64,000 nucleotides of DNA from Paramacrobiotus metropolitanus. Taxonomy: Eukaryota; Tardigrada; Eutardigrada; Parachela; Macrobiotidae. Shown one piece after another: positions 23,190 through 62,850 of the stretch; position 1 is the first letter of the stretch; every line of letters begins with the position of its first letter. The DNA lies in assembly GCF_019649055.1 (NCBI RefSeq), contig NW_026570278.1, positions 434,001-498,000 of the forward strand, written 5' to 3'. A program made the position numbers and the translations under genes. A model generated the notes under the pieces. It made no database searches and was not told where the DNA came from. It worked only from the letters and a program-made list of their open reading frames with translations.

Positions 23190-23395
23190 GGTGGGTAAGG
23201 TTTAAGATTAAAACAAACTTCGAAATTCTCAGCGCATTCTCGAATCGCATAAAAATTCAAATCTGAAGTCGTAAAATTCAGTTTTCGGTCTTGGCCTAAG
23301 CGTGAGATGCGGCTTTTAAGCTGTGCTACGCGGATATTTCGTGGTGAAGTGTCAACCAGGCGCGATTCTGTGTGGCCAGTAGGTCCGCTTAGATG

Positions 23396-23728
23396 TGTGA
23401 GCCATGGCTGCACTCACGTATTCACCCTCACGCCTGTGGCGTTATGCGGATGACGTGTCTGTGTTGTGTCTCTTCTGATTGGTTGATTTCGCCTTGTGTG
23501 GGCGCGCCTATGTGCGCTGCGAAGAGCGTTGATTTAGCTCTTCGCTTGGCAGATTTGCCAGTGTTCAGGCAGTCGTTCAGTCAGTTGATTTGCACACTCA
23601 ATAAAGTGTATTTATGCTAGTGGATGCCGTGCGTTGCGCATTTATCCAGAGTTCTTAGCATATTACGCTACGCAGGATCCTGTCAGTGGGGATCTCTGTC
23701 CTGGACTCATTCTGAGTACCACGTTATA
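23396..23728 (+). repeat. 5' LTR of the giant element (333 bp)
   Basis: It begins TGTGAGCCATGG and ends GTACCACGTTATA. A CAATAAAG polyadenylation-type signal is near 23599. It differs from the 3' LTR only by two extra bases (TA after CACTCACG). The terminal TG is canonical, but the 3' terminal CA is not present. A 75-codon ORF inside is a by-product. Confidence 0.95.
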
Positions 23729-25100: not shown

Positions 25101-28100
25101 ATGGACAAAGACAATGTGGAACCGAAGTCTAATAGCAGTCAGGGAAGCCGAGGCTCCCGCGGATCACAGCAGGGCGCACCTGATCCGTACAAGAAGGATC
25201 TCAAACCTCTCACACGACCAGTTGAACATGAGCGGAATACACGGGCACCTAAAGCCTTCGTGAGGAAGGATTCACGAGGCTCTGATAGCACCTATCAGAA
25301 AGCACTCGAAGCGGTGTCAGCCCAAGAGAGCTCCAGTGACGAGCGACAACGATCTGCCGCGCCTGCAGCGGGAAGCAGCGAGGTGAACAAAGTGGTCACC
25401 AAAGAAGGAACGAGCTCGCAACAAGCAAAGGAGATGGACGTGACATCACAGAAGGATGTCAAGACCAGCCCTGCCACATCGGAGCAGGTCAAAGATGCCA
25501 AGTTGACCGGACCGGACCTCTATGAACAGTCTAAAGATGAGACTCTTGATGAGCTGAAGTTGGGAGATGTCTCACTTGACGACGATGTCACAGTGGAAGA
25601 CCTTTTTGAGAGTCCAATGCAATATGAAGAGATGATGAGAGATCAGAGGTTCAATAATGAAGAGTCGTACCTCACCGAGGACGATGTGACGATGAACATG
25701 TCGTTCAGGACGGCAATGAAGGAAGCCGACCGAGCTGAGGGGATGATATCGTTCGAAGATATACCGGAACACCTAATTGAACGAACTCAAACTGGGAAGA
25801 TCATCAGTGTTCGATCTCCATCCCCGAATAGTCCTACCTCAAACTTGAAGAAACAAATCAGGGAACTGCAAGCATCACTGGAAGAAAAGGAGTGTCAAAT
25901 CCTCCAAAAGAAACAAGAGTACCAGAAGAGGATAAACTCGCTGGAAGCTCACGTCTACGAGATGGAACAACAACACGGAGTTCTGGAAAACTCAGCCGCA
26001 GAGGGGAAAATCAGGTATGAGCGACAAAAAGAGATCGCCGAAGAAGCCCAGAAGGTGGCTGATGACAAAGAAGTCGAGAAGTTCATCGCGGTTGACGAGC
26101 TCAATGAGAGTATGTCCGAAGAGACAGCTGAAAAGTCAAGGAAATTAGCTGAACTAAAGGATCAGTGCGACGAGCTTCGCAAGAAGGCAAACGAAGCGGA
26201 AGTCAAGCGCAATGAATACGCGACCAAGTTAGCTGAGGCCACACAACGACTGGCATCGATGTCAACAGACATGTTGAAGCTCAGAAACGATCTGAAGCTG
26301 CGGGAGGAGAACATTGGTATCCTCCAGAAGGAGTCGCAAGCCCATCAAAAGCGAGCTGATGAGGCACTCCAGGTGGCGAAGGAGCTCACGGAGCTGGGGG
26401 CGACCGAAGGAGAACGACTTAAGGCAGGAATCAAGGAAGTTAATGAAGAAAACCAGAAGCTAACAGAAGATAATAAAAAGCTGACAGAGGAAAGCCAAAA
26501 ATGGAAAACTCAAGCACTTCGGCTGGACAAACTGGTCACGGCACTCGAAATAGCTGAGACAGAACAACAAGGAAAAGTTCATGAGCAGCTCGAGGAGAAC
26601 ATCAGGCTCAATACGGAGCTGACTGCGATGGCAACGACAGCAATGCTGAGAGAAGATGAAGCCATCGGCCTGAGAAACCAGCTGAGATCAGCAGCTGAGG
26701 AATATACTCGGATGGAAGGCGAGGTGACCCAGCTGGCCGAAATGATTAAGAACATGGAAAAGGAAACTGAAAAGATCGTCCAGGAGAAGACCTTCCAACT
26801 GCATAATCATACGCAGAAGGTAAAACAGGAGAATTCTAACCTGAAAATACAACAGGAGGAATTCCAGCTGAAAATCAAACGACTGGAAGACGAGAACAAA
26901 GCTCTCCAGCTGACAAATAAGCACAAGGACGAGCAATTATGCCAGTTCGGTGTGAAGAAAGCAACCGACGAATCACCCCCGCCTAGTTACAGTAAGGCAC
27001 AAGGGAAAGGAACTGGCGGGAGTGCACACTTCGAAATGCCGCTACGAACGGGTGGCGGCAGAGGTGATTTCAAAACGGAAAAGGATAATGAGGAATCTGA
27101 TAAACGGAACCCGTCGGGCAGCCATCAGCCACATATGAGCTCAGGTGACCCATCGCAGTATCAGCAACCTAACGAAACAGCAGTCAAAGATGATGTGAAC
27201 CGAGATGCGAGGTCCCCCCGACATGAACATGATGGGAGATATTTCAGAGAATATCGAAACGAACGCAACGAAAGGAACGAGCGAAATCAACAAGAAGAGC
27301 GAAACGAGGGTCGCGGCAAAAGGGAATTCAACAGAGCCATTAAGAATATGGGCCGAAAAACTGATCTCGCGACTTTTGACGGTAACCGAGATGCTGTGAA
27401 TGGATGGATTCGCATTGTGAAAGAGACACAGCGCACATATGATCTGACCGATGAGCAGATCATGATCGACATAGCCAGTGCTGTGAGAGGACCAGCCAAG
27501 ATCTGGTTCGACAGTGAAAGGGACATCGAAGAAGCTGAAGAAGAAGTCTACACAGTCACCGAATGGCTCAATAAATTCAAGGATGAGTACGGTGATCGAA
27601 ATGAGGAAGTCCTCGGCCTACGCGAAGCCATGGCCAGGAAGTTCAAACCCGGAAAGGAGACGCTTGAGCAGTTTTACCAAGCGATCATGAAATTCAAAGC
27701 GAAGAAGGCGATCACCGAACTACAAGCAGTCGCATTCCTCATAGACGGATGCAGAGTGGATAATAACCTCTACAATGCGCTGAAGACGAAGGGGTTTAAG
27801 ACGCCAACGGAAATTAAGGACTTCTTCAGATCATGGGCAGCTGGAGAAGATAAATACAAAGTGGTGGAAGGTCAACGTAACCAACCGGAGGTCGTGACCA
27901 TCCGATCGGGCCAAGTTGAGATGGCACCGAGACAATATGCAGCTGCACCAGCTCAACAGATGGAATATAGGCCGAGATCACCAGCTCCCGTCCAGAACCA
28001 AGTGACGTTTATTGATAGTCAGACGGGACAACCGATCACATATGCCATGGTCGCTGCGATACAAGCGCAGGCACAGGCACGACCAGTAGCCCCGGCTAAC

Positions 28101-28583
28101 GTGATACCGAACCCCCTGAACGTAGGGGTGCCACCTCAACAAGGAAGGCCCAATATCGGAAACCAATACGGAAATGGGAATGCCAACTGGAACAATGGCC
28201 AGGGAAATGGCAACTTCAACCAAAACCGAAATCAAGGGAACTATCAGCAGAACCGTGGCAACTATCAGCCACAGCAGGGTTCCCGAACTGAATGGAAATT
28301 CGGTCAAATCGATGGATGGGTGACCCAGGGCGTGCAGTTGTGCCAGAATTGTGGAATTGTGGATAACCACAATGCACAGAACTGCATGTTCGCCAACATG
28401 CCGTTGAACCGGAACCCGAACTTGTTCGCCACCCAGGAGTGGGAACGACTCCGCACCCAAGGCGGATGGCGACAGGCGGTAGCGAACGGCTACGACCTGG
28501 TTGCAGCATGGCGCCAGTTCAAGCAACAGAACGGCGGCGACCAAGGAGGTAACCAGGGTGGCGGATATAACGGCGGAGGCTGA
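25101..28583 (+). CDS. gag: Gag of the giant element, with long coiled coil and zinc knuckle
   Basis: The start ATG has good context (CAACCATGG). Residues 1-245 are Ser/Gln/Lys-rich and probably disordered. Residues about 247-615 form a heptad-rich coiled coil, unusual for Gag. A basic Arg/Asn/Glu-rich stretch follows (about 700-745). Residues about 748-922 look like the helical capsid domain of Ty3/gypsy Gag (TFDGNRDAVNGWI, then KEAMARKFKPG-type helices). The tail is Asn/Gln/Gly-rich with a knuckle C-x2-C-x5-H-x4-C at about 1081-1095; the x5 spacing is one residue longer than usual. The frame stops at TGA 28581-28583, but the same frame continues with an RGG-type tail to a TAG at 28770-28772, so the TGA may be a mutation or a readthrough site. 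Confidence 0.9.
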   Translation: MDKDNVEPKSNSSQGSRGSRGSQQGAPDPYKKDLKPLTRPVEHERNTRAPKAFVRKDSRGSDSTYQKALEAVSAQESSSDERQRSAAPAAGSSEVNKVVTKEGTSSQQAKEMDVTSQKDVKTSPATSEQVKDAKLTGPDLYEQSKDETLDELKLGDVSLDDDVTVEDLFESPMQYEEMMRDQRFNNEESYLTEDDVTMNMSFRTAMKEADRAEGMISFEDIPEHLIERTQTGKIISVRSPSPNSPTSNLKKQIRELQASLEEKECQILQKKQEYQKRINSLEAHVYEMEQQHGVLENSAAEGKIRYERQKEIAEEAQKVADDKEVEKFIAVDELNESMSEETAEKSRKLAELKDQCDELRKKANEAEVKRNEYATKLAEATQRLASMSTDMLKLRNDLKLREENIGILQKESQAHQKRADEALQVAKELTELGATEGERLKAGIKEVNEENQKLTEDNKKLTEESQKWKTQALRLDKLVTALEIAETEQQGKVHEQLEENIRLNTELTAMATTAMLREDEAIGLRNQLRSAAEEYTRMEGEVTQLAEMIKNMEKETEKIVQEKTFQLHNHTQKVKQENSNLKIQQEEFQLKIKRLEDENKALQLTNKHKDEQLCQFGVKKATDESPPPSYSKAQGKGTGGSAHFEMPLRTGGGRGDFKTEKDNEESDKRNPSGSHQPHMSSGDPSQYQQPNETAVKDDVNRDARSPRHEHDGRYFREYRNERNERNERNQQEERNEGRGKREFNRAIKNMGRKTDLATFDGNRDAVNGWIRIVKETQRTYDLTDEQIMIDIASAVRGPAKIWFDSERDIEEAEEEVYTVTEWLNKFKDEYGDRNEEVLGLREAMARKFKPGKETLEQFYQAIMKFKAKKAITELQAVAFLIDGCRVDNNLYNALKTKGFKTPTEIKDFFRSWAAGEDKYKVVEGQRNQPEVVTIRSGQVEMAPRQYAAAPAQQMEYRPRSPAPVQNQVTFIDSQTGQPITYAMVAAIQAQAQARPVAPANVIPNPLNVGVPPQQGRPNIGNQYGNGNANWNNGQGNGNFNQNRNQGNYQQNRGNYQPQQGSRTEWKFGQIDGWVTQGVQLCQNCGIVDNHNAQNCMFANMPLNRNPNLFATQEWERLRTQGGWRQAVANGYDLVAAWRQFKQQNGGDQGGNQGGGYNGGG

Positions 28584-28840
28584 GGAGGCTTCCGCGGGCG
28601 AGGTCGTGGCAACGGACGCGGCAACTACGCCAATCGGAACTGGCGCGCCAACAGTAACGGTGGTGGCGGCGACCAGAATAATGTCGGCGGCGCGAACGGC
28701 GCTGGCCAGGGGCAGCAAAACGAGCAGGCCCCGCAGCAGGACATGAATCAGGAAAACGAGCAAGATCAGTAGGCGCCGGTGAGCCTGCTGATCTCCCTGA
28801 ACCGAAACCACCGGATAAAGGAGGAACACAGAATCAGACT

Positions 28841-31339
28841 GTGTTCGAGATGGCTAAAAAGATGCCATCACCCGTGGGCAAAGTACCACAGCCGCAGAAT
28901 CGGACTGCAGGCGAAACGGCTTATAAGATGCCGTCACAGCAGCTGAAGGAGATGGCTCAAAAGATGCCATCACATGTGGGCAAAGGACCACCACTGCAGA
29001 ATCGGACTGCAGACGATATGGCTCAGAAGACGCCATCACAAGTGGGCAAAGGACCACCTTTGCAGAATCAGACTGCAGGTGAGATGGCTCAAAAGATGCC
29101 GTCACAAGTGGGCAAAGGACCACTGCCGCAGAATCAGACTGTGAGCGACCAGGTGAACAATAAGGCGAGATCACCTGACTGTAGCGAAGAGAAACTGAAA
29201 GAACGACGTGCTCAACGTAACGAGATCATCCGGAAAGCGAATCTCAAAAAGAAGGAAGAAGAGAAAGAGACCGATGATCAGCACGCCAGATTCCGCGAGT
29301 TCCTGCGTAACCGAGAAAAGGACATTCCACCACCTCCCACACCAGCGAGAGATCAAGGAGCAAGTGCAGTCGCTAGAAGCAACGACAAAAAGGTCGTCTC
29401 AATAGGTCAGGCAAAGTCACTGACGCTGCGAAATGTGCAGCTAAATGAGAGCGAACGAGCACAACAGGTCTCCGACGATTCACTAGATGATGCAAATGTA
29501 TTACAAGAAAAGCAGAGGTGGCAAAAGATGGCATATCGACCAAACGGAAATCACGGGATGTGGATAACGGTTACGCCAAAAGCGAAACTGAAAGGACAAA
29601 TGTCGCAAGAAGACTTCTGGGACATGAAACAGCTTCAAACGGATGCTGCGAGAAAACGTCTCGAGGAGATGGTTACCGGGAAACCATCCAATGGGTTAAA
29701 GAACCCAGTCCCGATCCGGAAGTGTTCATCCTGCTCAACGCAGAACCCAGATGTGTTCAATACAGCCCCAGCGTATAAGAAGACACCAGCTGACTACTGC
29801 TACTTGAAAAATGCCTCGCCAGAAGGCAAACCGCCGAATTACGGAGAAAAACTTCCGTTACAAAAGTTGCCAAACGGCGGATTTACTATAAAGAAGAAAG
29901 AGAAGCCACGGGATTTCTTGCAAGTTCTGCAGGATGACGCTAACAGGTCACCATCCAGAACAGAGGGGATGTCTTCACAAGTCGAGCCGAAGCAAACCGA
30001 CAAGGAATGGGCTAAAAAGATAACCGACTGGATGAAAGACAACGAGCATAAGATGATCGTCTATGAGAGATCACCAGAAGAGTTGAAAAATAGCGAAGAA
30101 GATGAGCTGACACTGGCTGAACAAATCACAATGGAGGTCATTGACAAGCTCCGCGATAAACCGGCAGATAACCGAGATGCGACCAAGCTGTATCAGACCA
30201 TCACTGAAGTGACAAAGAGGCACACAGAAGTTGCGAAGGGGCAACTAAATGAGCTCAAAAAGGCCGACAGCGATGTAAAAGCTGCAACGAAAAATGAATG
30301 TGAGGAGTTACAAAGCTCAAAGGAGATGAACAAAAGAGAATTCTACGATATCCGAACTGATGTGCCACATCGTATCGATCATCTGAGCTCGATACTGAAA
30401 AAGAAAAGCACTTATGCGAACGGGCAGGTGCTACCTGACATGGATCCGGGACCAGTATCACTGATACCAGTTAAATGTACGGTCCGGAAGTTAAAAGTCC
30501 AAAATGGGAACTTTCCAAAAAGAATCGAAGCGTATACGCATGAAGTCAAAGTTGGAGACATCAAAGTGATAGCAATGTTGGACACGGGAGCTGAGACATC
30601 GCTGATCAGCCGGCCATTTTGTGAAAAGAACGGACTTCACATTTTACCGCTGCCACCTGATAGGCTCGTGAAGGTAAATGGAATCAGCGGCACATCGGGT
30701 TTCGTCGTTACACACTACTGTGTGGCACCAGTAACGCTAAGAAAACGAACTACGGAACACTCCTTCTACGTGAGACCAAAGACAGATGACGTACAAGTCT
30801 TATTGGGACATGATTTCCTGGCGACAAAGTTCGTCCTAATCGATAATCACGGAGAGGAGGAAGTCGAAGATGATCCGAAGCCAACTGCCAAAGTTCAAGC
30901 TGGAAAAGTTGCGGAACTTGTAAAAGGGACAGTTAAAGCTAAAACGGAGCTAAGGGCTATCCCAGTACCAGAGGCACTGGGATCAAAAGAGATGAACATA
31001 AAAAGGGGAGGTTCATCTGCCCATCCGTCAATAGTTGAACGGATGACAGCTATCCAGCGGGAGATCTCTACCAAGTTGGGGAGATCATCAGTTAAACCGA
31101 CAGAACGGGCAAACGTCGTTATCCCAGTACCAGAGGCACGGGAAACGACGAAAGATGATCAAAAAGGAGCTAGTGAAGGAGCTATCCCAGTACCAGAGGC
31201 ACTGGGAACAAAAGATGAAACTCTTTTGACGCTGGAGCAGATCACAGCTACACAAAAAGAAGCCGCTGTTGAAGCCAAACGAGCTCTCGTACCGGACTTG
31301 GAGTGGTCAAAGCCTATCCCAGTACCAGAGGCACTTTAA
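28841..31339 (+). CDS. pol: protease-containing ORF of the giant element (PR)
   Basis: The frame is -1 relative to Gag and is open upstream to at least 28742, so a -1 ribosomal shift near the Gag end is possible; I see no textbook slippery heptamer. A 66-bp repeat (22 codons, MAQKMPSQVGKGPPLQN type) occurs about four times at 28848-29150. The retropepsin motif is LDTGAETSL, with the catalytic Asp at residue 581 (30581), and the flap-side LLGHDFL follows about 75 residues later. After the protease, IPVPEA recurs four times (30958-31338). The ORF ends at a TAA inside a TTTAA microsatellite (31335-31356), after which the coding signal continues in another frame. Confidence 0.85.
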   Translation: MFEMAKKMPSPVGKVPQPQNRTAGETAYKMPSQQLKEMAQKMPSHVGKGPPLQNRTADDMAQKTPSQVGKGPPLQNQTAGEMAQKMPSQVGKGPLPQNQTVSDQVNNKARSPDCSEEKLKERRAQRNEIIRKANLKKKEEEKETDDQHARFREFLRNREKDIPPPPTPARDQGASAVARSNDKKVVSIGQAKSLTLRNVQLNESERAQQVSDDSLDDANVLQEKQRWQKMAYRPNGNHGMWITVTPKAKLKGQMSQEDFWDMKQLQTDAARKRLEEMVTGKPSNGLKNPVPIRKCSSCSTQNPDVFNTAPAYKKTPADYCYLKNASPEGKPPNYGEKLPLQKLPNGGFTIKKKEKPRDFLQVLQDDANRSPSRTEGMSSQVEPKQTDKEWAKKITDWMKDNEHKMIVYERSPEELKNSEEDELTLAEQITMEVIDKLRDKPADNRDATKLYQTITEVTKRHTEVAKGQLNELKKADSDVKAATKNECEELQSSKEMNKREFYDIRTDVPHRIDHLSSILKKKSTYANGQVLPDMDPGPVSLIPVKCTVRKLKVQNGNFPKRIEAYTHEVKVGDIKVIAMLDTGAETSLISRPFCEKNGLHILPLPPDRLVKVNGISGTSGFVVTHYCVAPVTLRKRTTEHSFYVRPKTDDVQVLLGHDFLATKFVLIDNHGEEEVEDDPKPTAKVQAGKVAELVKGTVKAKTELRAIPVPEALGSKEMNIKRGGSSAHPSIVERMTAIQREISTKLGRSSVKPTERANVVIPVPEARETTKDDQKGASEGAIPVPEALGTKDETLLTLEQITATQKEAAVEAKRALVPDLEWSKPIPVPEAL

Positions 31340-33675: not shown

Positions 33676-33678
33676 AAG

Positions 33679-34938
33679 GTGTTGCCGACATCAAAGAAAC
33701 CGTACGGAGATGTCAAAGGGATCACCCACGTGATTGATACGGGAGATGCGAAACCGGTAAAGTGCAATCCCGCCAGAACCAGCTGGACAGGTCGAGAGTT
33801 CATAACAAAGCACATCGAAGAGATGCTGGCGCAGGACGTCATCGAGCCATCAGATGCCGACTGGAGTTTCCCAGTCGTGCTGGCAGCGAAAAAGAACGGT
33901 GACGGGACAATGGGCACCAGATTCTGCGTCAATTACATCATGCTGAACAATCTAACGAAGAAAAATAACTACCCGTTACCGAACCCGGATGAGTTGCTGG
34001 ATGCATGTGCAGGCAACAAATACTATGGGAAAATGGACCTGCAAAGTGGATTCTGGCAGATTCCCATGGATCCGGAGTCGATTAATAAAACGACATTTGT
34101 GACTCAAGATGGCATGTATCGGTTCAAAAGGATGCCGTTCGGAGTCTGTAACGGACCGGCAACGTTTCAACTCTGCATGGACAGAGTTTTATCCAAAGCG
34201 AAGCAAAAGGGCTGCGTCTTTGGATACATCGATGATGTCATTTTTGCTGGAAAGACTTGGGAGATTTTCATGCAAAATATGAGGAACGTACTTCAAAGTT
34301 TGGTTGAAGCAGGTTTCACCATTAAACCGACGAAATGTGAATTCGGAATGCAGGAGATGGGATTCCTGGGTCATATACTCAGTGAAAATGGAGTTCGAAT
34401 GGATCCTGAAAAGATCACCGCAGTATCGGAGTTCAAACGACCTCAGACTGAACGACAGCTGAGATCGTTCCTTGGATTGGCGAACTACTATCGGAAGTTC
34501 ATAGCTGGCTATGCACAGCACACCTGCCATTTATATGAGCTGTTGCGCAACGATAAACACGTCAGAAAAGACAGGACAGAAGTTCACACGAAGGAGTTTG
34601 AGAACTTGAAAAAGCTGCTATGTGAAGGTCCGGTGCTGGCAAAGTTTGATCCAGCTAAACCGACAGTTATCGAATGCGACGCGAGCAAAGAAGGAATTGG
34701 AGCAGTTCTATCACAAGAAGGTCATCCAATTGCCTATGCGAGCCGCGTCTTACATGGAGCTGAACGAAATTACGGTGTAACCGAATGGGAATGTCTGGCG
34801 GTCGTATTCGCCGTCAGAAAGTTTAAACCATATATCGATTACTCCGAGTTCACCGTACGAACTGACCATCAGGCACTGACGAATTTGCTAAGATCGGAAA
34901 CGAACAAAGTTGGCATGAATCCGAGATTAACAAGATAG
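33679..34938 (+). CDS. pol: reverse transcriptase and RNase H of the giant element
   Basis: Clear Ty3/gypsy RT blocks are present: VIEPSDADWSFPVVLAAKK, then MDLQSGFWQIPMD, then MPFGVCNGPATFQ. The catalytic box is YIDD at residues 183-186 (34225), where most relatives have YLDD or YVDD. Then come KCEFG, FLGHIL and RSFLGLANYYRKFI. RNase H follows with ECDASKEGIGAVL (Asp 334), the ERNYGVTEWECLA Glu, and RTDHQAL (Asp). A TAG at 34936-34938 replaces what is normally a Trp codon in the conserved RWALALQ-type block, so it looks like a G-to-A nonsense mutation. The frame then continues directly. Confidence 0.95.
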   Translation: MLPTSKKPYGDVKGITHVIDTGDAKPVKCNPARTSWTGREFITKHIEEMLAQDVIEPSDADWSFPVVLAAKKNGDGTMGTRFCVNYIMLNNLTKKNNYPLPNPDELLDACAGNKYYGKMDLQSGFWQIPMDPESINKTTFVTQDGMYRFKRMPFGVCNGPATFQLCMDRVLSKAKQKGCVFGYIDDVIFAGKTWEIFMQNMRNVLQSLVEAGFTIKPTKCEFGMQEMGFLGHILSENGVRMDPEKITAVSEFKRPQTERQLRSFLGLANYYRKFIAGYAQHTCHLYELLRNDKHVRKDRTEVHTKEFENLKKLLCEGPVLAKFDPAKPTVIECDASKEGIGAVLSQEGHPIAYASRVLHGAERNYGVTEWECLAVVFAVRKFKPYIDYSEFTVRTDHQALTNLLRSETNKVGMNPRLTR

Positions 34939-34941
34939 GCG

Positions 34942-37335
34942 ATGGCATTACAAGGCCATCAGTTCAAGATCGAGTACAAACCCGGAAAGTACTGCGATAA
35001 CGCGGATGCTTTATCGAGAGCACCTATCGAAGGTCCGACATGCCATGATGAGGAAATCGATGAAATCCCGAACTTCGAGGACATCAAAAAAGAATATGAC
35101 ATAAAGGAACCAGCGATCGAAGTTTGGCAGCTGTTCGTTCAGATGGCCGAAGAAAGAGAAAAGCGAATAAAGATCAACTCAGTTACGGCGAAAGAGCCGG
35201 CTGAGACATTGATCAACGTCAACCAGCTTAAAAGCGGGGTTGGACCTAACCCGGCACGATTCGGACCTGACTCGGCAGCTCAGAGAGCTGAGCCTAGCGA
35301 GCGAAGTAAAGATCGAGATGATCTCTGGGAACAAGATAAAGTTGCGCAGGCATTAAATGAGTGCCCAATAAAGCTGCTGAAGTTCCCGAAAAAGCCGACA
35401 AATCGATATAATAAGCTGCCAAGATGCAAAGTCATCTCTGATTGGAACGAGCTCAGCACTGCAACAGTGCGCATTGTAAATTTGCAAGGAGATGAGGAGG
35501 AGGTAGATGATTCGAATCTACAATTGCGGAATAAGCAGCTGAAAGACCCTCACCTTGCGATGATCATCGATGAATTGGAACACCTACCGGATGCAGAAAC
35601 GAGATCAAAATTCGAAGTCCACTACCAGTTATGGAACGGAATCTTATATCGGGTAAAAGATAATAAAGGCAGACTCGAAAGGACATACGTTGTACCACTG
35701 TCAATGAGAAGAGCAATCATCCATGCACTCCATGATGAGAAAGCAGCAGGCCATCTTGGATTTGAAAAGACGCTGGCAGCTATCAGACTGCGATACTATT
35801 GGGACAGAATGAGTACGGACGTCAAAAATTATATACTCGCATGTCAAGGATGTCAGTTCCACAAGACACCACGGAAGTGTCCACCTGGCAAGTTGCAGGA
35901 GATCAAAGCGGGACATCCTTTCTTCCGAGTATACGCCGACCTTAAAGGGCCATTATTACCGACAAAGAAGCGTGGATACAAGTATATTGCGGTTTTCATC
36001 GATCAGCTGACAAAATACGTGATAGCAGTACCAATGAAGACGGCGACAGCGAAGGAGTTCGCCAAAGTCTTCGTCAAACATGTGATATTGGTACATGGAG
36101 CTCCGCATATCCTGCATACGGATCGTGGCAGACACTTCACAGCGGAAGTCCTATCGAAAGTCACCAACGTGTTCAAAATAAAACACACGTTCGGAACGGC
36201 ATACCACCCAGAAGGCCAGGGCCAAGTCGAAAAGCGGATGCAGATCATCGGAGATGGTCTAGCACAGTACATGAAGGCAGGAAATGAACGGAAATCTAAC
36301 AAGTATCTGCCATATGTGGTCTCAGGGATGAACAGAGCCGTACATGTCACAACCGGATATTCAGCATATTACATGCTGCATGGAAGAGAGATGACCATGC
36401 CAGAGGATGTGGTGACCAGAACGAACTTACCAGACGATTATGGTACTCCAGATGAATGGGTGGAGACCATGAAAAAGAATTTGACTTTCGCCGAAGAAGT
36501 AGCCAAGTGCAATATAAAAGATGCGTATGAGAAGAACGCAGAAATCTATAATAAAAAGAAGTCGGAACCGAACTTCAAAGTGGGCGACATGATACTTATA
36601 CGACTTCCGAAGGACACCAAACAGGGAAAGAAGGAAAACCAATCGGACTTTAAAGCGAAATACGATAAAGTGTGGAAAATTCTCAGCTTCCCACGAGCAA
36701 ACGAAGTAGAAGTTATTGAACAGAACCCGATAAAGGAAGCGGAGTTGAAAGTCGTTTCCATAGATCGACTGAAACCATGGCACCCACCGTTATCGGGGGA
36801 CCAGAAGCGCAAAGGAGCTGTACCGGAACGCCCTTCTCCCAAACCTCCTCTGCTACCCAATGCGGAAAATGATGTAGTAGAGCCCGCTTCTTTCGAACCA
36901 CGCTCTGAAACCGAAGTGTCGGGAGATGTGAAGGAAGTTCAGCCGAAAAAGCGAAGAGGTAGACCTCGAAAAGAGGAAAAGGACTTTGAAACAGCAGTCA
37001 CATTAAGGTTGAATGCGGAAGCCGGAAATCTAGCCGAAAAACTCATAAACGAGGGTGGAGTACCAGAGCGTACTTCTCAAAAAGACTTGGAACAGTCCCT
37101 TTTCGAACCACGCACTGCTACCGAAAGTGATCAGCGGAAGGTCGCTGAACAAACAGAGCGTAATTTGAAAAGCTCTACTACCGAGGAAAATCAGCCGAAT
37201 GTGGCTGTAGAAGCATATCGTGCTTCTTCCAAACCACGCATCGCTAATGATCAGCGGGTAAAACAGCTCGAGACAGCGAAAGCAACAGCCGCCCAGCCCA
37301 ACTGGGGCGTGACATTGCCGCTGCCATCGAGCTAA
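34942..37335 (+). CDS. pol: RNase H end and integrase of the giant element
   Basis: It opens with the RNase H/IN connection (KPGKYCDNADALSRAP). The H2C2 zinc domain has HDEKAAGHLG and CQGCQ (Cys 301 and 304). The catalytic core has Asp 333 (YADLKGP), Asp 394 (HTDRGRHF) and Glu 430 (QVEKR), which is exact D,D35E spacing. The C-terminal part carries FKVGDMILIRLPKD, the usual strand pattern after the core. A basic AT-hook-like KRRGRPRK is at residues 670-677, followed by four loose repeats of a VPER...FEPR type. There is no chromodomain. The AT-hook could tether integration to chromatin (inference). The ORF ends with TAA; the following coding region is in another frame. Confidence 0.95.
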   Translation: MALQGHQFKIEYKPGKYCDNADALSRAPIEGPTCHDEEIDEIPNFEDIKKEYDIKEPAIEVWQLFVQMAEEREKRIKINSVTAKEPAETLINVNQLKSGVGPNPARFGPDSAAQRAEPSERSKDRDDLWEQDKVAQALNECPIKLLKFPKKPTNRYNKLPRCKVISDWNELSTATVRIVNLQGDEEEVDDSNLQLRNKQLKDPHLAMIIDELEHLPDAETRSKFEVHYQLWNGILYRVKDNKGRLERTYVVPLSMRRAIIHALHDEKAAGHLGFEKTLAAIRLRYYWDRMSTDVKNYILACQGCQFHKTPRKCPPGKLQEIKAGHPFFRVYADLKGPLLPTKKRGYKYIAVFIDQLTKYVIAVPMKTATAKEFAKVFVKHVILVHGAPHILHTDRGRHFTAEVLSKVTNVFKIKHTFGTAYHPEGQGQVEKRMQIIGDGLAQYMKAGNERKSNKYLPYVVSGMNRAVHVTTGYSAYYMLHGREMTMPEDVVTRTNLPDDYGTPDEWVETMKKNLTFAEEVAKCNIKDAYEKNAEIYNKKKSEPNFKVGDMILIRLPKDTKQGKKENQSDFKAKYDKVWKILSFPRANEVEVIEQNPIKEAELKVVSIDRLKPWHPPLSGDQKRKGAVPERPSPKPPLLPNAENDVVEPASFEPRSETEVSGDVKEVQPKKRRGRPRKEEKDFETAVTLRLNAEAGNLAEKLINEGGVPERTSQKDLEQSLFEPRTATESDQRKVAEQTERNLKSSTTEENQPNVAVEAYRASSKPRIANDQRVKQLETAKATAAQPNWGVTLPLPSS

Positions 37336-37340
37336 GAAAG

Positions 37341-38521
37341 GTGAAAAAAAAGAAGTCACGACCCACTCCCACGGAAATCCTCACAAGTAAAGGAGAAGAG
37401 GAAGACGCCGCCGACAAAGAACTCTTTGATCGGATAACTAAAGGACGCAGGGATATTAACCCAAAAATAAGGCTTATGGGCGTTTACGATATTAAGAACG
37501 GGAGTTGGGAAGGTGTAAAAGTGATTCGTCGTAAACCGGCTAACAGATATCGTTTTCATTATTCAAACAGGTATTAAAAGTTGATGGAACGATTGGAACG
37601 GCAGAATTCAGATAATTCTGATTCTGAAAGCATTGGAAACCCGTTAAAAGCACCGATAAGAATGGAAGGTGATCAGGGTTATAATCCGTACTTTGGAGAT
37701 GAATCGAACTCGTCTGCAGGAACGGTGCAAAACGAGCCAGGGATATCGAATCAGCCAGTCTATTTGGGAGGCACAGCCTTTACCCACACCAGCAGGACCC
37801 AACGAGTTACCAGAATACGCAGAACTGGGTGTCGGATCACTACGGCTCAAATGTCGGACCACCCCAGTTTCCAGGACAAAACATTCCTTTCTCGGGACAA
37901 CAGTTCCCAGTACACGGATCATCGCAAGTAATGATGGGACCGCCGGCAATGATGATGCCACCACCACGGCAGGTGACATCGAATTTTCCTGTCGGAATGG
38001 TACCGACACAACCGGTACGATTACCCGGATTTGGCGGGATACCGGTAGTACCTGGCGGACACGGAGGATTTAGCGGCATGTCCCCAGTCCGAACACCAGG
38101 TATCGGTGGAACTTCACCCAGATCAGTATACGGGGGATGTGGCGGAACGTCGCCTGCCCCATCCATGTCCCAAGGAGGTCTAAACCTACCGCCATTATTT
38201 CCGGACTGGACCGCAACGGCGCCAGGACCATTTGGCATATCCGTATTACCACGCCCACATCGACGATTTGATCGAGGAGGCACATCCCCACATAAAAGAG
38301 GAGGGAGATCATATGGACGAGGAAACCGATTTGAATCACCTCGATTGAGAGGGGTGTTGCCTTCGTTGGGACCACAATTGGAAGGATTACCGAAGACTCC
38401 TCCAGGCGAACCCTCAGTGTCGGAATACTCCCCACGATTGACGGTCAATATACGAGAAGACGATGACCGCCTGAACGTGATTGTGGGCGAAAACGAAACG
38501 ATTGCGGAAGAACACAGGTGA
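37341..38521 (+). CDS. post-integrase region 1: basic segment and Pro/Gly/Met-rich segment
   Basis: 37341-37577 and 37581-37931 share a frame separated by a TAA. The coding signal then appears to shift to 37829-38521. The first part is basic, with the strands IRLMGVYDIKNG and VKVIRRKPANRY. The second is very rich in Pro, Gly, Met and Gln (for example GPPAMMMPPPRQ), then Arg/Gly-rich (RGGRSYGRGNRF), and ends acidic. It is low in complexity and I recognise no family. A TGA at 38519-38521 separates it in frame from the next ORF. Confidence 0.6.
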
Positions 38522-38563
38522 GTCATACATGATTTCAACCGAATCTGCCACGATTTTTATCGG

Positions 38564-40543
38564 ATGCACGAACGCGTCGATGACGAACATGCGTTCTACG
38601 GAAAATTGATGTCAGTGGCAGGGATGTCACATCCCACACACGAGGCACTTAAAGAGAAGACAGCGGTTCTTATTCAGAAACGAAAGGAAATCGGGATTCA
38701 AATCGTAACGATGAAAAAGTGTCATCCAGCCTTAGTACATCGAGACTGGCCGGATATGGTGGAAAAGATCCTCCGCTTCATTAGGAAATATCCAGAAGAA
38801 AGATCCCGATCGGTAGATGTCGCACCGACTTCATCAAAGGAAAAAGCGGGGACATCATTGGCAAAAACTGTTGAAGAGATGACAGATGAAGAAATAATGG
38901 CAGAAAAGAAGAAACTCGATGAAGCTTTGAAACAGCGCACGAGATCACGGACCAGCTCGACAGCAGAATCATCTAGCTATAGCACGTCAAAACGTGCGAG
39001 ATCGGTGACGAAAAGTCCGAAATCAGGAGACGCAACTGGTCAAAAGGCGAAAAAGCCTACGGTGAGTAAGGAACCACCGCAGGTACAGGAAATGCCCGTA
39101 CCAGTTGTACCGGTGGCCAAGAAGGCTCATCAACCATCGGTACCACCTCCAACTCAGCCGATCCCACCACTACCAGTGGCACCCAGTCAACCGATACCTG
39201 CAACAGAGATTCCACCAGTCAAAGCATACTTGGTAACCTTCCCTGGAACAGATGGACAGGAAAAGAAAGTTTCCGCTCGACTAGTGGATAAAAACACGAA
39301 CCAGGAGATCCCATCTTGCGCGGATAGGGGAAATAAAGAGTTGAAGAAAATGATCAATACGGCATCACGGGAACAGGCGGAAGCGGCCTTAATAGCTATC
39401 CCGAATGAGGTGGATCGTAGAAACCCTCGAATTCTCATCCGAATGATGAAAGAGCTGATAGCGAAAAAGGCGAAAGAAGAGGACGCCTGGATTCATATAC
39501 GAGTGGGCACGAATGAGGACCACATGTTATATACGTACACAACCGAAGGACGGATATTGGCGGTTGAAAGAAAAACGTTAAAACCTGAAGAGGAAGATAC
39601 AGGCGGGAAGAAAAAACGAAAACCCGATTACGATACAGTGTACCTGTATACTGAGCCAGTCTGCAGACTGTTTACAATCGGATATGAATACGCAGTTGAT
39701 GTATCGGGAATAGCGATAGTGGAAATTGTCGATCCCTTATCGGGAGATCCGATTCCCTTCGCACCGATGTGCATATCGAAGGAAGACAAAGAACATGCTG
39801 ACAAGGAATCAAGAAAAACCCTTAAAGCACTATACAAAATGTTACCACCCGAGGTGAAGAATAACGCGGTAGCATTGACAGCAGCGGTGCTTAGTCTGAT
39901 GCAACAGCGCGCGGAAGCGGATCAAGCCTTCATTCGATTGACATATAACCACGACGATGGAACGCTCCGAACAGCCTGTTATGATCACCGAAAAACACCG
40001 CTATACTGGGATATTACACCTCCGGAACACATCAAAGCTGCAAACGAACAGCTCGCCAAACAACAGCAAGCTCAAGCTCAGGCTCAGCTCGCGGCACAGG
40101 AAGGTCCTGCCGGAGAAGCTGACGAGGAAATGGAAGATGACGGAGCTCCCGAAGGAGGAGATGACGATCTAGATGACGAAGATGATGAACCAGAGTCGGA
40201 AGATGAACCGGTTGATGAAGATAACCCTAAACGATCTCTGGCCACAGTTTTCGAGATCGTCAAAGGAGCCGAACATAAGCCGTGTAAAGACGTGAACTGT
40301 CCTCAATGTTTCCACCTCGGGATTCAGACGACTCTGAAGAAGATGACGAATCATTTGAAGAAGATTCGGAAGATGAAAAGCCGAAGACAAGATCGTCCAA
40401 AACGGCTACAAAGTCCACGGGAGCTGGAAAAACTGGGCAGAAATCAGGCCAAACTTCAAGAGGAGACACCAAGAAAGGAAAGGTGGAAACTCAACAGAAA
40501 AAGAAGAGGGGACACAGAAAGGAGGAGTCCTCAACGGATGTAG
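38564..40543 (+). CDS. post-integrase region 2: protein with an internally duplicated unknown domain
   Basis: The frame continues from 37829 after TGA 38519. Residues 1-90 are helical, followed by a Ser/Arg- and Pro-rich linker (about 90-220). Two copies of a domain of about 110 residues then follow. The first, near residues 225-345, includes ALIAIPNEV, then WIHIRVGTNEDHMLYTY. The second, near 360-490, includes ALYKMLPPEV, then FIRLTYNHDDGTLRTACYD. The two align over helix, helix and hairpin. An Ala/Gln stretch and a long Asp/Glu tract follow, and then CKDVNCPQC. From about 40306 the coding signal moves to another frame, so the last 78 codons of this ORF are probably out of frame. No known family is recognised. 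Confidence 0.65.
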   Translation: MHERVDDEHAFYGKLMSVAGMSHPTHEALKEKTAVLIQKRKEIGIQIVTMKKCHPALVHRDWPDMVEKILRFIRKYPEERSRSVDVAPTSSKEKAGTSLAKTVEEMTDEEIMAEKKKLDEALKQRTRSRTSSTAESSSYSTSKRARSVTKSPKSGDATGQKAKKPTVSKEPPQVQEMPVPVVPVAKKAHQPSVPPPTQPIPPLPVAPSQPIPATEIPPVKAYLVTFPGTDGQEKKVSARLVDKNTNQEIPSCADRGNKELKKMINTASREQAEAALIAIPNEVDRRNPRILIRMMKELIAKKAKEEDAWIHIRVGTNEDHMLYTYTTEGRILAVERKTLKPEEEDTGGKKKRKPDYDTVYLYTEPVCRLFTIGYEYAVDVSGIAIVEIVDPLSGDPIPFAPMCISKEDKEHADKESRKTLKALYKMLPPEVKNNAVALTAAVLSLMQQRAEADQAFIRLTYNHDDGTLRTACYDHRKTPLYWDITPPEHIKAANEQLAKQQQAQAQAQLAAQEGPAGEADEEMEDDGAPEGGDDDLDDEDDEPESEDEPVDEDNPKRSLATVFEIVKGAEHKPCKDVNCPQCFHLGIQTTLKKMTNHLKKIRKMKSRRQDRPKRLQSPRELEKLGRNQAKLQEETPRKERWKLNRKRRGDTERRSPQRM

Positions 40544-41313
40544 ACGTCGAAATTGATTATGAAGATGTGGTTGTTACAGATGATAGCCCGTCAACAGCCA
40601 CAACACCGAAGAAAATTGTCATCGAATCAGCGACATCGACCGCGTTTAAGTCGAAACCGATTGCGGTGAAGAAAGCAGTTCCGCTCGGACAAATCATGTC
40701 CGCATCGACTCAGAAAGAACGAAAAGAGAAAGCCCAAGCTGACAAGAAGAAACGCGAATCATCTCGCGAGTCAACAGCGGTATCGGAAGCGAGTAGTCGT
40801 CCAAGTACATCGACAATTGTGTCGAAATCTATCTCGGCAGCACGGACGACACGAGGTAAAACGGCTGAACCGAAGGCGGCGCCGAGCTTGGAATCGACGT
40901 TAAAAAAACAAAAACAGCTGGCTCTCCAAAAACAAAAGAAAGAAGGGAAGAAAAGCGGTGAAAAGAAATCGAAACCTCCAGCAGTCATAAGAATCGACGC
41001 CCCAGGCATGGCAGGATACGCCAGAATTCCGGGAGACAGTGAATTTGAATACTCAGAACCAGAAAACTCTGAGTCGTTTCCCGAGTTCGATGAACCTGAT
41101 GGCGAAGACCTGACGGAAGAGGATCTGATCGAAATTACTAAGAAGATTGTAAACAAGATGAGGACCAGATATACATCGATCACGTTAAAATTCCGCAGGC
41201 TAGCTAAGGAAAAGATGGAGGAACGAGATCATTCCTTCACAGCCCGAAAATTTTACACGCTGGTGGAATATGCCATGAACGTCGGGAAACTGACTAAGAA
41301 ACATCTTGAATGA
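40306..41313 (+). CDS. post-integrase region 3: acidic/basic linker and first winged-helix-like module
   Basis: It overlaps the previous ORF by 238 bp in another frame. Codon content suggests that the true protein switches here. Residues 1-90 are acidic, then Lys/Ser/Thr-rich. Residues 90-240 are Lys/Ala/Ser-rich, like linker-histone tails. The last 75 residues (41090-41310) are a compact helical module: DLIEITKKIVNKM, then ITLKFRRLAKEKM, then FYTLVEYAMNVGKL. The spacing (helix, helix, helix ending in GKL) matches the winged-helix pattern seen more clearly in the next two ORFs. It ends at TGA 41311, and the frame continues. Confidence 0.6.
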   Translation: MFPPRDSDDSEEDDESFEEDSEDEKPKTRSSKTATKSTGAGKTGQKSGQTSRGDTKKGKVETQQKKKRGHRKEESSTDVDVEIDYEDVVVTDDSPSTATTPKKIVIESATSTAFKSKPIAVKKAVPLGQIMSASTQKERKEKAQADKKKRESSRESTAVSEASSRPSTSTIVSKSISAARTTRGKTAEPKAAPSLESTLKKQKQLALQKQKKEGKKSGEKKSKPPAVIRIDAPGMAGYARIPGDSEFEYSEPENSESFPEFDEPDGEDLTEEDLIEITKKIVNKMRTRYTSITLKFRRLAKEKMEERDHSFTARKFYTLVEYAMNVGKLTKKHLE

Positions 41314-41328
41314 AAGCCGAAAGCGAAG

Positions 41329-42435
41329 TTGATCAGAACAGGCGGGATCGATAAGCAGCTATTCGATCAACACGCGGATAAAAGACGACAGATCGAGTTA
41401 GCCATAGCAGGAATGCGCAGCCCGTTTGGCTCAACTCGACATCGCATCACGCAATATATAAACGGGCTATGGCATGGTGGAAACGGGAACTTCGCAGAAC
41501 TCGAAGCGGGGAACGCTACGATGCTAACAAAGATGATTAATGAAGGAAAAGTCATCACCACCAACGCCCATATGGGATCACCGATCAGATACACGATGTT
41601 GGGACTGATACCGGTGGAAATCGAAACTCAGAATCATTACTCTTCTAGTAAAGATATGACGTTACTCGATATTAAAAAGCGAGATGATCCGGATACACCT
41701 ATTCTCAATATCCTCCACCAGAAGGGAGACCAGAAGCGAGCTGCCGAGGCGAAAATTGCGGCAGAAAAGTTGAAGAAGAAACCGCTAGAGGACAGAGGTA
41801 TCATGGATGCCGATTCTGACACAGATGATGGAGATGATGAAGATCCAGCAGCAGCTCCCGCGAAGCTGATAGGGAAAGCTGCGACGAGCCGAACGGGGGA
41901 TGAACGGAAGGTCGTTCTCCCTACCGATAAATTGGCACAACAAGCTGAGGCTGAACTCGCCGCCATGCGCGAAAGACGAAAGACGTCCGGACTTGCACTA
42001 CCTAAGACTAGTGGAGCTGGCAGTAGCAAGCCAAAAGACAACAAAGCGAACTCGGCACCCTCCCAGAGCATTGAACCGAAATCGACCAAATCATCGTCAA
42101 GTTCAATGGCGAAACTCACAATTGATGAGAAAGGACCTGTGACGGACTCAACAGAAGGTTCGGACACCGGAGCGAAATCAGAAGACCGAGAATATATGCT
42201 CGGAATACCGTTGGATAACGCCAACCAAATCTGGTGCGAACTTAAACGGTTCCTTGGAAATCAACCGGACCAGACGATGGGTCACAGGGAGCTCAAATCG
42301 GCCATGTGCACCAATAGAGTACTGAAATTATCGGGAAACAGCTTCGACCGGATGACTAAACGAGCCTACAAAGAAGGGAAATTAGGCTTCAGTTATTCGG
42401 AAACCAACAAATGGGTATATTACCTGCCGCCATAA
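41329..42435 (+). CDS. post-integrase region 4: two winged-helix (linker-histone H1/H5-like) modules
   Basis: Module 1 (residues about 17-97, nt 41377-41619) reads QIELAIAGMRSPFGSTRHRI, TQYINGLW, MLTKMINEGKVI and GSPIRY. This parallels H1 globular domains: first helix, Gly/Ser turn, second helix with I..YI, third helix ending GxL, then a wing with GS. Module 2 (residues about 295-368, nt 42211-42432) reads IWCELKRFLG, MGHRELKSAM, FDRMTKRAYKEGKLGF and WVYYL. Between them is a Lys/Ala/Ser-rich, partly acidic linker. H1 domains bind the nucleosome dyad and linker DNA. Assignment rests on pattern only. A TAA at 42433 separates it in frame from the next module. Confidence 0.65.
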   Translation: MIRTGGIDKQLFDQHADKRRQIELAIAGMRSPFGSTRHRITQYINGLWHGGNGNFAELEAGNATMLTKMINEGKVITTNAHMGSPIRYTMLGLIPVEIETQNHYSSSKDMTLLDIKKRDDPDTPILNILHQKGDQKRAAEAKIAAEKLKKKPLEDRGIMDADSDTDDGDDEDPAAAPAKLIGKAATSRTGDERKVVLPTDKLAQQAEAELAAMRERRKTSGLALPKTSGAGSSKPKDNKANSAPSQSIEPKSTKSSSSSMAKLTIDEKGPVTDSTEGSDTGAKSEDREYMLGIPLDNANQIWCELKRFLGNQPDQTMGHRELKSAMCTNRVLKLSGNSFDRMTKRAYKEGKLGFSYSETNKWVYYLPP

Positions 42436-42459
42436 CCGACACGAACCCCCCGGCTAAAG

Positions 42460-42906
42460 ATGGATCTGAAGTTTTGGAAAATCGCTATGACTGATGCAGC
42501 GATACCAAGACTGGGCGGAACTAATGGAGTGACATGGGATGATCTATCGAATTTCTTCGCCGTGAACTACGAGTTAGGAGAATTCAGTATTGAAAAAGAT
42601 CGAGAATGTATCAGGAAGGCAGTTGAAAGCCTTATCGATGAGAATATATTGGAGTTCAAAGACGATAGAATTTACTCCAGACCAGAAGATCCATCAGAAG
42701 AAACGCTGCAGGCTGAAGAAAAAGAACCCGCACAAGTGGTGACATCTGGGAAAATTGATCCTACTCCGCAGGAGATGCCACCAACTGAGACGAAAGCAGC
42801 TGAACCAGATCCGAAGTCAACGGCAATTATCCCGAATGATCCGAAAACTGTGGAAGCAACTGAGACTGTATCAGCTAATCCAGCTGACACAACACAAAAG
42901 GAGTAG
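42460..42906 (+). CDS. post-integrase region 5: third clear winged-helix module
   Basis: It is in the same frame as the previous ORF, with an ATG in good context (AAGATGG). Residues 3-78 read FWKIAMTDAAIPRLGG, VTWDDLSNFFAVNYELG, CIRKAVESLIDENILEF and DRIYSRP. This is the layout of an H1/H5 globular domain: helix, Gly-turn, second helix, third helix followed by L and a two-stranded wing. The rest is a Pro/Glu/Thr/Ala-rich tail. It could be the end of a tandem winged-helix protein, or a separately started one. Confidence 0.6.
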   Translation: MDLKFWKIAMTDAAIPRLGGTNGVTWDDLSNFFAVNYELGEFSIEKDRECIRKAVESLIDENILEFKDDRIYSRPEDPSEETLQAEEKEPAQVVTSGKIDPTPQEMPPTETKAAEPDPKSTAIIPNDPKTVEATETVSANPADTTQKE

Positions 42907-43237
42907 CACATGAGGGATGTGTGATATGCGGTAAGGAAGGTCCACCGTATATCACAGCAAAACATCACCAGCTCAGATTAAAAGAAGGCGATATAACAGT
43001 GTTAAACGTTCAAAACGGAAAAACTTAGCGAAAATGCTACACAGATGTGAAACGAGATGCGAAAAATCAGTCATATTAGGCGAATGAGCTTAAGAAGGGC
43101 GTTATGAGCTAGGAAGGTCTCAGCTCAGTATAGGAGTAGCCTAAATAGGCGTAAAATGATAAGAAGGACTTCATGGAATATCGGTGAGATGATGAGATGT
43201 CAATTAATATGATCTGATTACAGATTGAAGTGGAAAG
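42907..43237 (+). other. non-coding spacer inside the giant element
   Basis: All plus-strand frames have stops here, unlike the rest of the internal region. The spacer ends with TCTGATTACAG, a plausible splice acceptor, 17 bp before the ATG of the next ORF. It is the only place in the 3' half where the coding signal is absent for several hundred bases. Confidence 0.55.
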
Positions 43238-43903
43238 ATGGCTCAAAAAAGTCAAGCCAACCCGAAAGTTCAGATGACAAAGCAGATCCAGGCCAGGTCC
43301 ACAACTCAACCGGCACCTCTGGCCGTACGAAGTCAAGCAGCACCTGCGGCACCGAGAAATCAGGCTGCTCCGGCATCTGCAGCGAGTCAGGTGACATCTG
43401 CGATGACACCAGCGCAACGTCTTATCGATCCGGAAATCGATCGGTTTACGGGCTTTAATCCCAAATGTCCGGACTGTATCAGAAACAACAAGGCAGTTAG
43501 CGGTAAATTTCCATGTTGGAACTGCTTAATGCTCTTACCACCAGCTGAACGAAGCCTTGTGGCATATACGGAAGCCGCACGGGGCAATAAAGACGTATTC
43601 CGGAACGTTATCTACGCTGATAATTGGCAACACGTCCCACCGAAAGAGAAGATGTTAATTGAAGATCGTTACCGCCAATCTATTCAGAAAAGCGAACTTG
43701 GATGGGACGCAACACTGGAACCTCCACAAGATGACACGTGCGACGCGTATCGGAGGAAGTTTAATGCAGATATGGAACAGATGATGCAAGATAAGCGGCG
43801 TCAAGATTTGGAGGCCGAAGCGGTGGCCAGCCGTAAACGAGCAGAGGAGCAAGTCGCGCGCGAACATCGGGAGAAGTTGGCACAAAAAGGAAGGGCGCCA
43901 TAA
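43238..43903 (+). CDS. post-integrase region 6: Ala/Gln-rich protein with a paired CxxC motif
   Basis: ATG 43238 has a good context (AAAGATGG) and follows the spacer and possible acceptor, so this ORF may be expressed from a spliced RNA, as env-position genes are. Residues 1-60 are Ala/Gln/Pro-rich. Residues about 75-100 hold FNPKCPDC and FPCWNCLML, a four-cysteine zinc-ribbon-like pair. The C-terminal half is helical and charged (RRQDLEAEAVASRKRAEEQ). There is no signal peptide or membrane segment, so it is not an envelope protein. It ends in TAA, with the next coding stretch in the same frame. Confidence 0.6.
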   Translation: MAQKSQANPKVQMTKQIQARSTTQPAPLAVRSQAAPAAPRNQAAPASAASQVTSAMTPAQRLIDPEIDRFTGFNPKCPDCIRNNKAVSGKFPCWNCLMLLPPAERSLVAYTEAARGNKDVFRNVIYADNWQHVPPKEKMLIEDRYRQSIQKSELGWDATLEPPQDDTCDAYRRKFNADMEQMMQDKRRQDLEAEAVASRKRAEEQVAREHREKLAQKGRAP

Positions 43904-46959: not shown

Positions 46960-47290
46960 TGTGAGCCATGGCTGCACTCACGTTCACCCTCACGCCTGTG
47001 GCGTTATGCGGATGACGTGTCTGTGTTGTGTCTCTTCTGATTGGTTGATTTCGCCTTGTGTGGGCGCGCCTATGTGCGCTGCGAAGAGCGTTGATTTAGC
47101 TCTTCGCTTGGCAGATTTGCCAGTGTTCAGGCAGTCGTTCAGTCAGTTGATTTGCACACTCAATAAAGTGTATTTATGCTAGTGGATGCCGTGCGTTGCG
47201 CATTTATCCAGAGTTCTTAGCATATTACGCTACGCAGGATCCTGTCAGTGGGGATCTCTGTCCTGGACTCATTCTGAGTACCACGTTATA
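46960..47290 (+). repeat. 3' LTR of the giant element (331 bp)
   Basis: Read side by side it is identical to the 5' LTR except for the absence of two bases near its start (CACTCACGTTC here, CACTCACGTATTC in the 5' LTR). It is followed by the GATG target duplication. Confidence 0.95.
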
Positions 47291-47294
47291 GATG

Positions 47295-61213: not shown

Positions 61214-61503
61214 AGATGCAGCTGGTGCCATTGCCGTTAATCGTTATTGCAATCCCTTTGCTCAACTACTGTTCCCCCTAATTCAGTCTTTGCCGAGCTC
61301 ACTTTTATACGATGAAGCCAACCCCTGCTATCCTCACGCTATACGGTGCCCCTCCATTGCGGTGCAGCGCAGTCTGGTAACAACAAAGTCGAATCTGATT
61401 CTGGGCAAAACGAAATCAAGGATGGAGACGGTATAATCAAATCTGGGAATGCCACAATTAAGCCAACGGAAAAACGGTAAGGCCAGTTTATGATTATTGC
61501 GGA

Positions 61504-62543: not shown

Positions 62544-62850
62544 GCTGTGCTGCGAAAAGTTTGTAATGGAATGGTATGGTCGGTCAGTGATGATGTTCCA
62601 GCATTATGTTGTACTGCGCTGGGGAGGATTCTGGTTGGTGATGGTGAAGGCTGATTTCTGGGCTCAATGAAATCAGATAAGCGAAATAGCGATGATGGCT
62701 ATTCCATGCGCACTGGGATAAGAAGCTTGTATATATGAGGCAGATCTCCACAATAAAAAAATTAACTTGATGAAAGGTCGTAGAAAACTTTTAGCAACTC
62801 AGAGGATTTATATAAAGGTCACCGTGGTTCGAAACCGATCTGCTACCAGA

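Follow-up and report, generated by a model that had tools for sequence, protein, structure and literature searches.

Extra genes behind pol have been described in several long terminal repeat (LTR) retrotransposons, often with no known function (PMC7264820, PMC5408684). The C. elegans gypsy element Cer1 carries, between pol and its 3' LTR, an accessory gene unlike retroviral envelopes, whose product CERV is described as a nuclear protein with H, M and G domains that is made via splicing to gag exons (PMC10309623), and the planarian Burro gypsy elements are reported as giants totalling more than 30 kb with additional host-like domains, namely BIR, ankyrin, MATH, BCL2-like and midasin-like ones (PMC6431247). 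Tandem linker-histone domains are described in the host chromatin protein HP1BP3, which combines three H1 globular domains with a Glu-rich start, an Asp/Glu tract and a basic tail (PMC4344522), and tardigrades are known to have their own protein that binds nucleosomes, Dsup (PMC6773438). Here we describe a stretch of 64,000 nucleotides from the tardigrade Paramacrobiotus metropolitanus (contig NW_026570278.1, positions 434,001 to 498,000 of the forward strand; hereafter the window), in which a Ty3/gypsy LTR retrotransposon of 23,895 bp (23396-47290) bears behind pol a broken gene, ORF2, with four conserved modules (M1 to M4), two of which, M2 and M4, are of linker-histone type as judged by profile matches in their relatives.

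ORF2 resembles each of these systems in part. Its position is that of the CERV gene and its product, on the role proposed below, would likewise be nuclear, whereas the domains assigned to CERV are different ones, and the word "winged" is absent from the Cer1 paper (PMC10309623). Giant size and host-like extra domains are shared with Burro, although none of the domains described there is a linker histone. With HP1BP3 the common ground is a single chain that combines more than one H1-type module with acidic tracts, of which one precedes M1 in ORF2; however, the basic C-terminal domain of HP1BP3 has no counterpart in ORF2, whose C tail in the copy L010 has a net charge of -11, and two of the four ORF2 modules, rather than three in tandem, are H1-type by profile. 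A literature search by titles, which did not extend to the majority of subscription papers and bioRxiv preprints, returned no linker-histone domains in an LTR element, and "histone" does not occur in the main text of PMC11071193, PMC6431247, PMC5408684, PMC7264820, PMC11963269 or PMC10309623. Extra genes behind pol are familiar, and H1-type modules within such genes appear to be absent from the literature searched. ORF2 is an extra gene with a nameable domain, its H1-type modules being retained by selection from copy to copy and, in strongly diverged form, in sister elements.

Linker-histone profile matches and purifying selection in ORF2

We scanned 15 relatives of ORF2 against all of Pfam (24,736 families) and found that Linker_histone (PF00538) was the best-matching family in 11 of them and exceeded its curated cut-off of 22.4 bits in six. 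Five of these six (L030, L033, L034, L039 and P0004; 22.7-38.2 bits) are sister-type genes, and the sixth is L046, whose M4 scores 23.9 bits (E 4.9e-5) and whose modules align to those of L010 at 32-34% identity. Matches to the same profile were also obtained for M4 of L010 (E 1.6e-3) and for the M2 counterparts of P0002 (2.4e-4), L012 (0.012) and L016 (2.6e-3). When the profile was run across the 169.8-Mb assembly, the host H1 scored 104.9 bits and a further 60 places scored 16-26 bits, seven of them above the cut-off; all 17 of the loci that were inspected (L013, L030-L040 and L046-L050) proved by sequence to be window-type or sister-type genes.

Profile-profile comparison gave a graded picture. 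Using hhalign and a reference set of eight H1 sequences, we obtained probabilities of 85-88% for M4, 20-31% for M2, 4-11% for M3 and at most 1.7% for M1; among the four blocks of the L030 sister type (B1 to B4), B2 reached 83%, B1 68% and B4 47%, and B3 gave nothing. Shuffling of alignment columns never reproduced the observed score for M2, M4, B1, B2 or B4, whereas 35 of 60 shuffles did so for B3. M2 additionally aligned to B2 and B4 at probabilities of 57-68%, and a GS or GT turn before helix 2, as in H1/H5, is kept in the alignments of all three. The initial annotation had described four tandem winged-helix modules resembling linker histone H1/H5, and its claim of likeness to H1/H5 is borne out for M2 and M4 in relatives and not for M1 and M3.

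Conservation was measured as the ratio of nonsynonymous to synonymous substitution rates (dN/dS) among the window copy, L037 and copies from L009-L028, each block being represented by 18 to 21 sequences. Fragments shorter than 50 residues were omitted, as were pairs that shared fewer than 30 codons or had a dS outside 0.05-2. The median pairwise ratio was 0.15 for M1 (68 of 153 pairs used), 0.10 for M2 (138 of 210), 0.12 for M3 (97 of 190) and 0.10 for M4 (129 of 210), with two pairs at or above 0.5 in each of M3 and M4. Within eight long frames the modules gave 0.06-0.13, as against 0.16 for the M2-M3 linker (15 pairs) and 0.36 for the C tail (3 pairs). ORF2 is maintained by purifying selection, the modules most strongly, and the four blocks do exist as conserved units close to where they had first been placed. 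That the frames are decayed non-coding remnants, with the modules a product of pattern-seeking, could be suggested by the frameshifts and in-frame stops of the window copy; it is refuted by these ratios and by the open frames of other copies, and we regard it as very improbable indeed.

Structure prediction gave a winged helix for two modules. The window's M3 and the M4 of P0001, a relative, were each predicted, at moderate confidence, to run helix-strand-helix-helix-strand-strand, which is the winged-helix order, and M2 was predicted as three helices in which the wing is not formed. Of the winged helices claimed for every module, those of M3 and M4 are thus predicted, that of M2 lacks a formed wing in the model, and that of M1, the fold of which is taken up below, is unproven. 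The modules show no detectable likeness to one another in sequence, the best pair among M1-M4 reaching an hhalign probability of 13%, and descent of the four by duplication from one another is unsupported.

Module charge and the possible role of ORF2

M2 and M4 share with H1/H5 a profile and, in M4, a predicted fold, and differ from it in charge, in the lack of a Lys/Ala tail and in their setting within a transposon gene of about 1,600-1,800 codons in its open copies. Median net charge was +6 for M1, +2 for M2, +5 for M3 and -5 for M4, and +1, -3, +5 and -5 for B1 to B4, against +9.5 for H1 globular domains. Counting columns that are basic or acidic in at least 90% of copies, we found nine basic and three acidic columns in M1, seven and three in M3, and ten acidic columns in M4; the acidic-to-basic counts were 5/3 in M2, 8/5 in B2, 2/8 in B3 and 11/5 in B4. 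In both types of gene basicity drops from each odd-numbered module to the even-numbered one that follows, and in M3 a conserved KRAYKE helix precedes the wing. The M2-M3 linker of L010 contains 11% Lys, 12% Ala and 21% Asp plus Glu for a net charge of -9, as compared with 32% Lys, 30% Ala, 4% Asp plus Glu and a net charge of +45 in the C-terminal tail of the host H1.

These values bear on the idea, which takes up the compaction suggested in the initial annotation, that the modules serve as a genuine linker histone, clamping naked DNA or the dyads of nucleosomes and compacting nearby chromatin or the DNA of the element. That PF00538 ranks first for M2 and M4 of relatives would fit such a role, as would the precedent of HP1BP3 with its tandem H1 globular domains and acidic stretches (PMC4344522). 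However, a strongly basic globular domain, as is typical of H1, is lacking in M2, M4, B2 and B4, M4 keeping ten acidic columns, and neither the L010 linker nor its tail resembles the long Lys/Ala-rich tail of the host H1, contrary to the suggestion that the linkers are H1-like. Because the modules closest to H1 are neutral or acidic and the linkers are unlike H1 tails, a classical linker-histone role appears unlikely and H1-like compaction of DNA finds no backing in the charges; we give the idea little credence.

The reading that we favour, tentatively and at somewhat less than even odds, is that the window holds a broken 23.9-kb Ty3/gypsy copy whose ORF2, with H1-profile modules M2 and M4 and predicted winged helices in M3 and M4, would encode a multivalent nuclear adaptor. 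Judging from charge, the labour may be divided such that the odd modules contact nucleic acid and the even, H1-type modules a protein or chromatin partner: basic M1 and M3 would bind RNA or cDNA of the element, and neutral-to-acidic M2 and M4 would attach to chromatin of the host or to a partner, for instance integrase, so that the element's nucleoprotein would be tethered ahead of integration. An AT-hook-like RGRPRK in the integrase might add a contact to DNA or chromatin. A bolder version, that a giant gypsy lineage captured and tandemly multiplied H1-type domains and now makes a chromatin-architectural protein of its own, which would hold the cDNA and seat it on chromatin, seems to us possible though unlikely. 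Were the nucleoprotein indeed seated on chromatin, ORF2 would represent a chromatin adaptor made by a transposon and offer a new test case for the targeting of giant LTR elements.

Several results weigh against the adaptor and its H1-type modules. In the window copy M4 alone touches PF00538, as its sole Pfam match and below the cut-off (E 0.25, 12.1 bits), whereas M1, M2 and M3 have no Linker_histone match and M2 and M3 no Pfam match of any kind; P0001, P0003, L025 and L028 likewise lack a Linker_histone match in the Pfam scan. For M1 and M3 compared with H1, one of 40 shuffles each reached the observed score in the wider alignment, as against none of 60 in an earlier one. M1 has no clear fold, two low-confidence helices being all that was predicted, the structure models have low mean pLDDT values (39 and 44), and none of the Foldseek matches attained E 0.001. 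The ten acidic columns of M4 stand beside seven basic ones, and the adaptor role itself is inferred. (A STAT_linker match of M1, at E 0.019 and 15.8 bits, was rejected against a cut-off of 27.)

Fold comparisons are where a further explanation has to be considered, namely that the modules are ordinary winged helices from several unrelated sources and that the H1 matches reflect a shared fold only, as they might for the cullin WHB or Z-alpha domains. Among fold matches of M4 the cullin WHB domain ties with H1; those of M3 include SarX, LOTUS, cullin and Z-alpha domains among others, and H1 is absent among the 50 listed for that module, which excludes nothing. The low mutual similarity of M1-M4 would be expected on this explanation, but the first place of Linker_histone among all Pfam families for M2, M4 and modules of the second family, with six relatives above the cut-off, would not, nor would the alignment of M2 to B2 and B4. 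We consider mixed, unrelated origins possible though unlikely.

It is also conceivable that the ORF2 protein regulates the element's own transcription or RNA, its winged helices binding specific sequences in the LTR or leader, in the manner of gypsy accessory proteins encoded behind pol. The KRAYKE helix ahead of the M3 wing would suit such a regulator, nuclear CERV is reported to be required for export of genomic RNA (PMC10309623), and the TRP28 domain of Retand is said to probably bind DNA (PMC11963269). Against this, CERV is described with other domains, and both a binding site for ORF2 and its expression would be conjecture; we find this explanation improbable. The multivalent adaptor stays our preferred, if tentative, reading of ORF2.

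The element, its copies and its sisters

The placement of the modules in an LTR retrotransposon was confirmed. The element has paired LTRs that align with 331 identities, no mismatches and a single 2-base gap, a short target-site duplication, and, downstream of a gag-type frame, Pfam matches in the gypsy order protease, reverse transcriptase, RNase H, integrase (Table 1). The gag-type frame has no Pfam match and aligns over 596 columns with the gag-like half of P0002 at 45% identity; the open frame that follows ORF2 also has no Pfam match. Across 16 frames of the window copy, the highest mean hydropathy over 19 residues was 1.24 on the Kyte-Doolittle scale. As no frame is hydrophobic enough to cross a membrane, the gene after pol is unlike an envelope gene, and an envelope of the errantivirus or retrovirus kind was rejected on hydropathy alone.

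Table 1. Features of the retrotransposon in the window (positions counted from the first nucleotide of the window)
Feature	Position	Strand	Evidence
Target-site duplication GATG, 4 bp	23392-23395, repeated 47291-47294	.	Script check
5' LTR, 333 bp	23396-23728	+	Alignment to 3' LTR
gag-type open frame	25068-28580	+	Open frame; zinc-knuckle-like Cys/His motif near end, by eye
Open frame with retroviral-type aspartic protease (residues 621-714)	28682-31336	+	Pfam gag-asp_proteas 1.4e-8, Asp_protease_2 1.5e-7
Reverse transcriptase and RNase H, Ty3/gypsy order	33676-34935	+	Pfam RVT_1 1.5e-27, RT_RNaseH_2 6.8e-32
Integrase	34939-37332	+	Pfam Integrase_H2C2 4.7e-20, rve 9.1e-12
ORF2, module-carrying gene	37662-42903	+	ORF map; broken in window copy by frameshifts and in-frame stops
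Module 1 (M1), basic, helical, frame cut by stop in window copy	41110-41310	+	Profile match
Module 2 (M2), linker-histone-type, GST turn before helix 2	41344-41619	+	Profile match; PF00538 in counterparts
Module 3 (M3), predicted winged helix, basic recognition helix	42193-42429	+	Profile match
Module 4 (M4), linker-histone-type, predicted winged helix, acidic	42460-42675	+	Profile match; PF00538 in relatives
Next open frame after ORF2	43229-43900	+	ORF lists; Cys-pair motif CPDC...CWNC by eye
3' LTR, 331 bp	46960-47290	+	Alignment to 5' LTR

The frames originally annotated around the modules are pieces of a single broken gene: 40288-41313, 41314-42435 and 42436-42906 share one reading frame with in-frame stops between them, and upstream of these pieces the ORF2 frame shifts. 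Its start codon was placed from a conserved MEGD. Twenty other ORF2 copies were fetched, several of them cut or broken. ORF2 is open across the entire fetched stretch in L010 and L012, and all four modules lie within one open frame in L010, L012, L013, L016, L025 and L028 (M4 of the last being cut); the fetched part of the L010 frame has 1,525 codons, and counted from its open start the frame reaches about 1,780. In a survey of P0001-type loci, for which 49 were scored out of 1,178 candidates, 29 were free of stops in the first piece listed, 14 of these 29 with an open frame 1,600 codons or longer, and an integrase lay on the same strand 3.5-5.5 kb upstream in at least 32 of the 49 (the integrase search scored 150 of the 1,178 candidates). 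Given these open frames and upstream integrases in other copies, the window copy appears to be a recent insertion whose ORF2 is broken.

Protein searches returned only P. metropolitanus: three proteins with L010 ORF2 as query (E up to 1; 7,981 candidates scored) and one with a sister-type query (7,996 candidates scored). P0001 (NCBI LOC129592721 of this species) matches one place in the assembly that contains the window without a single difference (923 of 923 residues, 100% identity). Searches with pieces of the window gave nothing usable against Pfam and NCBIfam (E up to 1) or PDB sequences (best E 0.67), and a 373-residue piece, of the wrong length class for its relatives, gave nothing usable against 5.8 billion proteins.

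Related genes extend to sister elements. L044 and L045 have integrases about 36-46% and reverse transcriptases 55-61% identical to those of the window, and behind sister integrases lie genes with modules of their own (L030, L038). L038 joins both types, matching L033 at 28% identity over 137 residues (E 9e-10) and M2 of P0002 at 39% over 54 residues (E 0.003). A single ancestral acquisition of modules followed by fast divergence would be the plainest reading of these alignments.

At the P0002 locus (G000:C9:1226435-1233046) the gag-like and ORF2 parts lie 1.7 kb apart, with no room for pol, and for both the listed open frame has 2,263 codons. The locus is apparently a derivative that lacks room for pol, possibly a non-autonomous form; with the parts so close and the frame open, the gag-ORF2 splice of the NCBI model P0002, as in Cer1 CERV, is unsupported.

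Further observations on the element and the window

The AT-hook-like motif of the integrase, KKRRGRPRKE (36946-36975, with RGRPRK at 36955), lies near its C-terminus and has close matches in pol of the copies L041 and L042, and a similar RRGRPRK opens the L038 frame. The first half of ORF2 (38522-40540) contains what appears by eye to be a duplicated beta-meander, the second copy of which was predicted as three strands at pLDDT 81-86 (P0001 residues 11-40). On its plus strand the element shows an excess of A over T, with a skew of +0.20 to +0.40 in every 2-kb block from 24001 to 46000 and of -0.08 and -0.03 in the adjoining blocks.

Elsewhere in the window, a tandem array of a 51-base unit at 5237-6094 keeps an open frame that encodes a repeating SSVTRSPNGL-like peptide, and 12426-13052 forms an inverted repeat with 313-nt arms that are 93% complementary around a 1-nt spacer. 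A direct duplication of about 1.1 kb (757-1844 and 19861-20947, 19.1 kb apart) is 87-96% identical in its pieces, and a 290-nt repeat with 100% identity (61502-61791 and 62849-63138), its copies 1.35 kb apart, perhaps marks the ends of a young short element.
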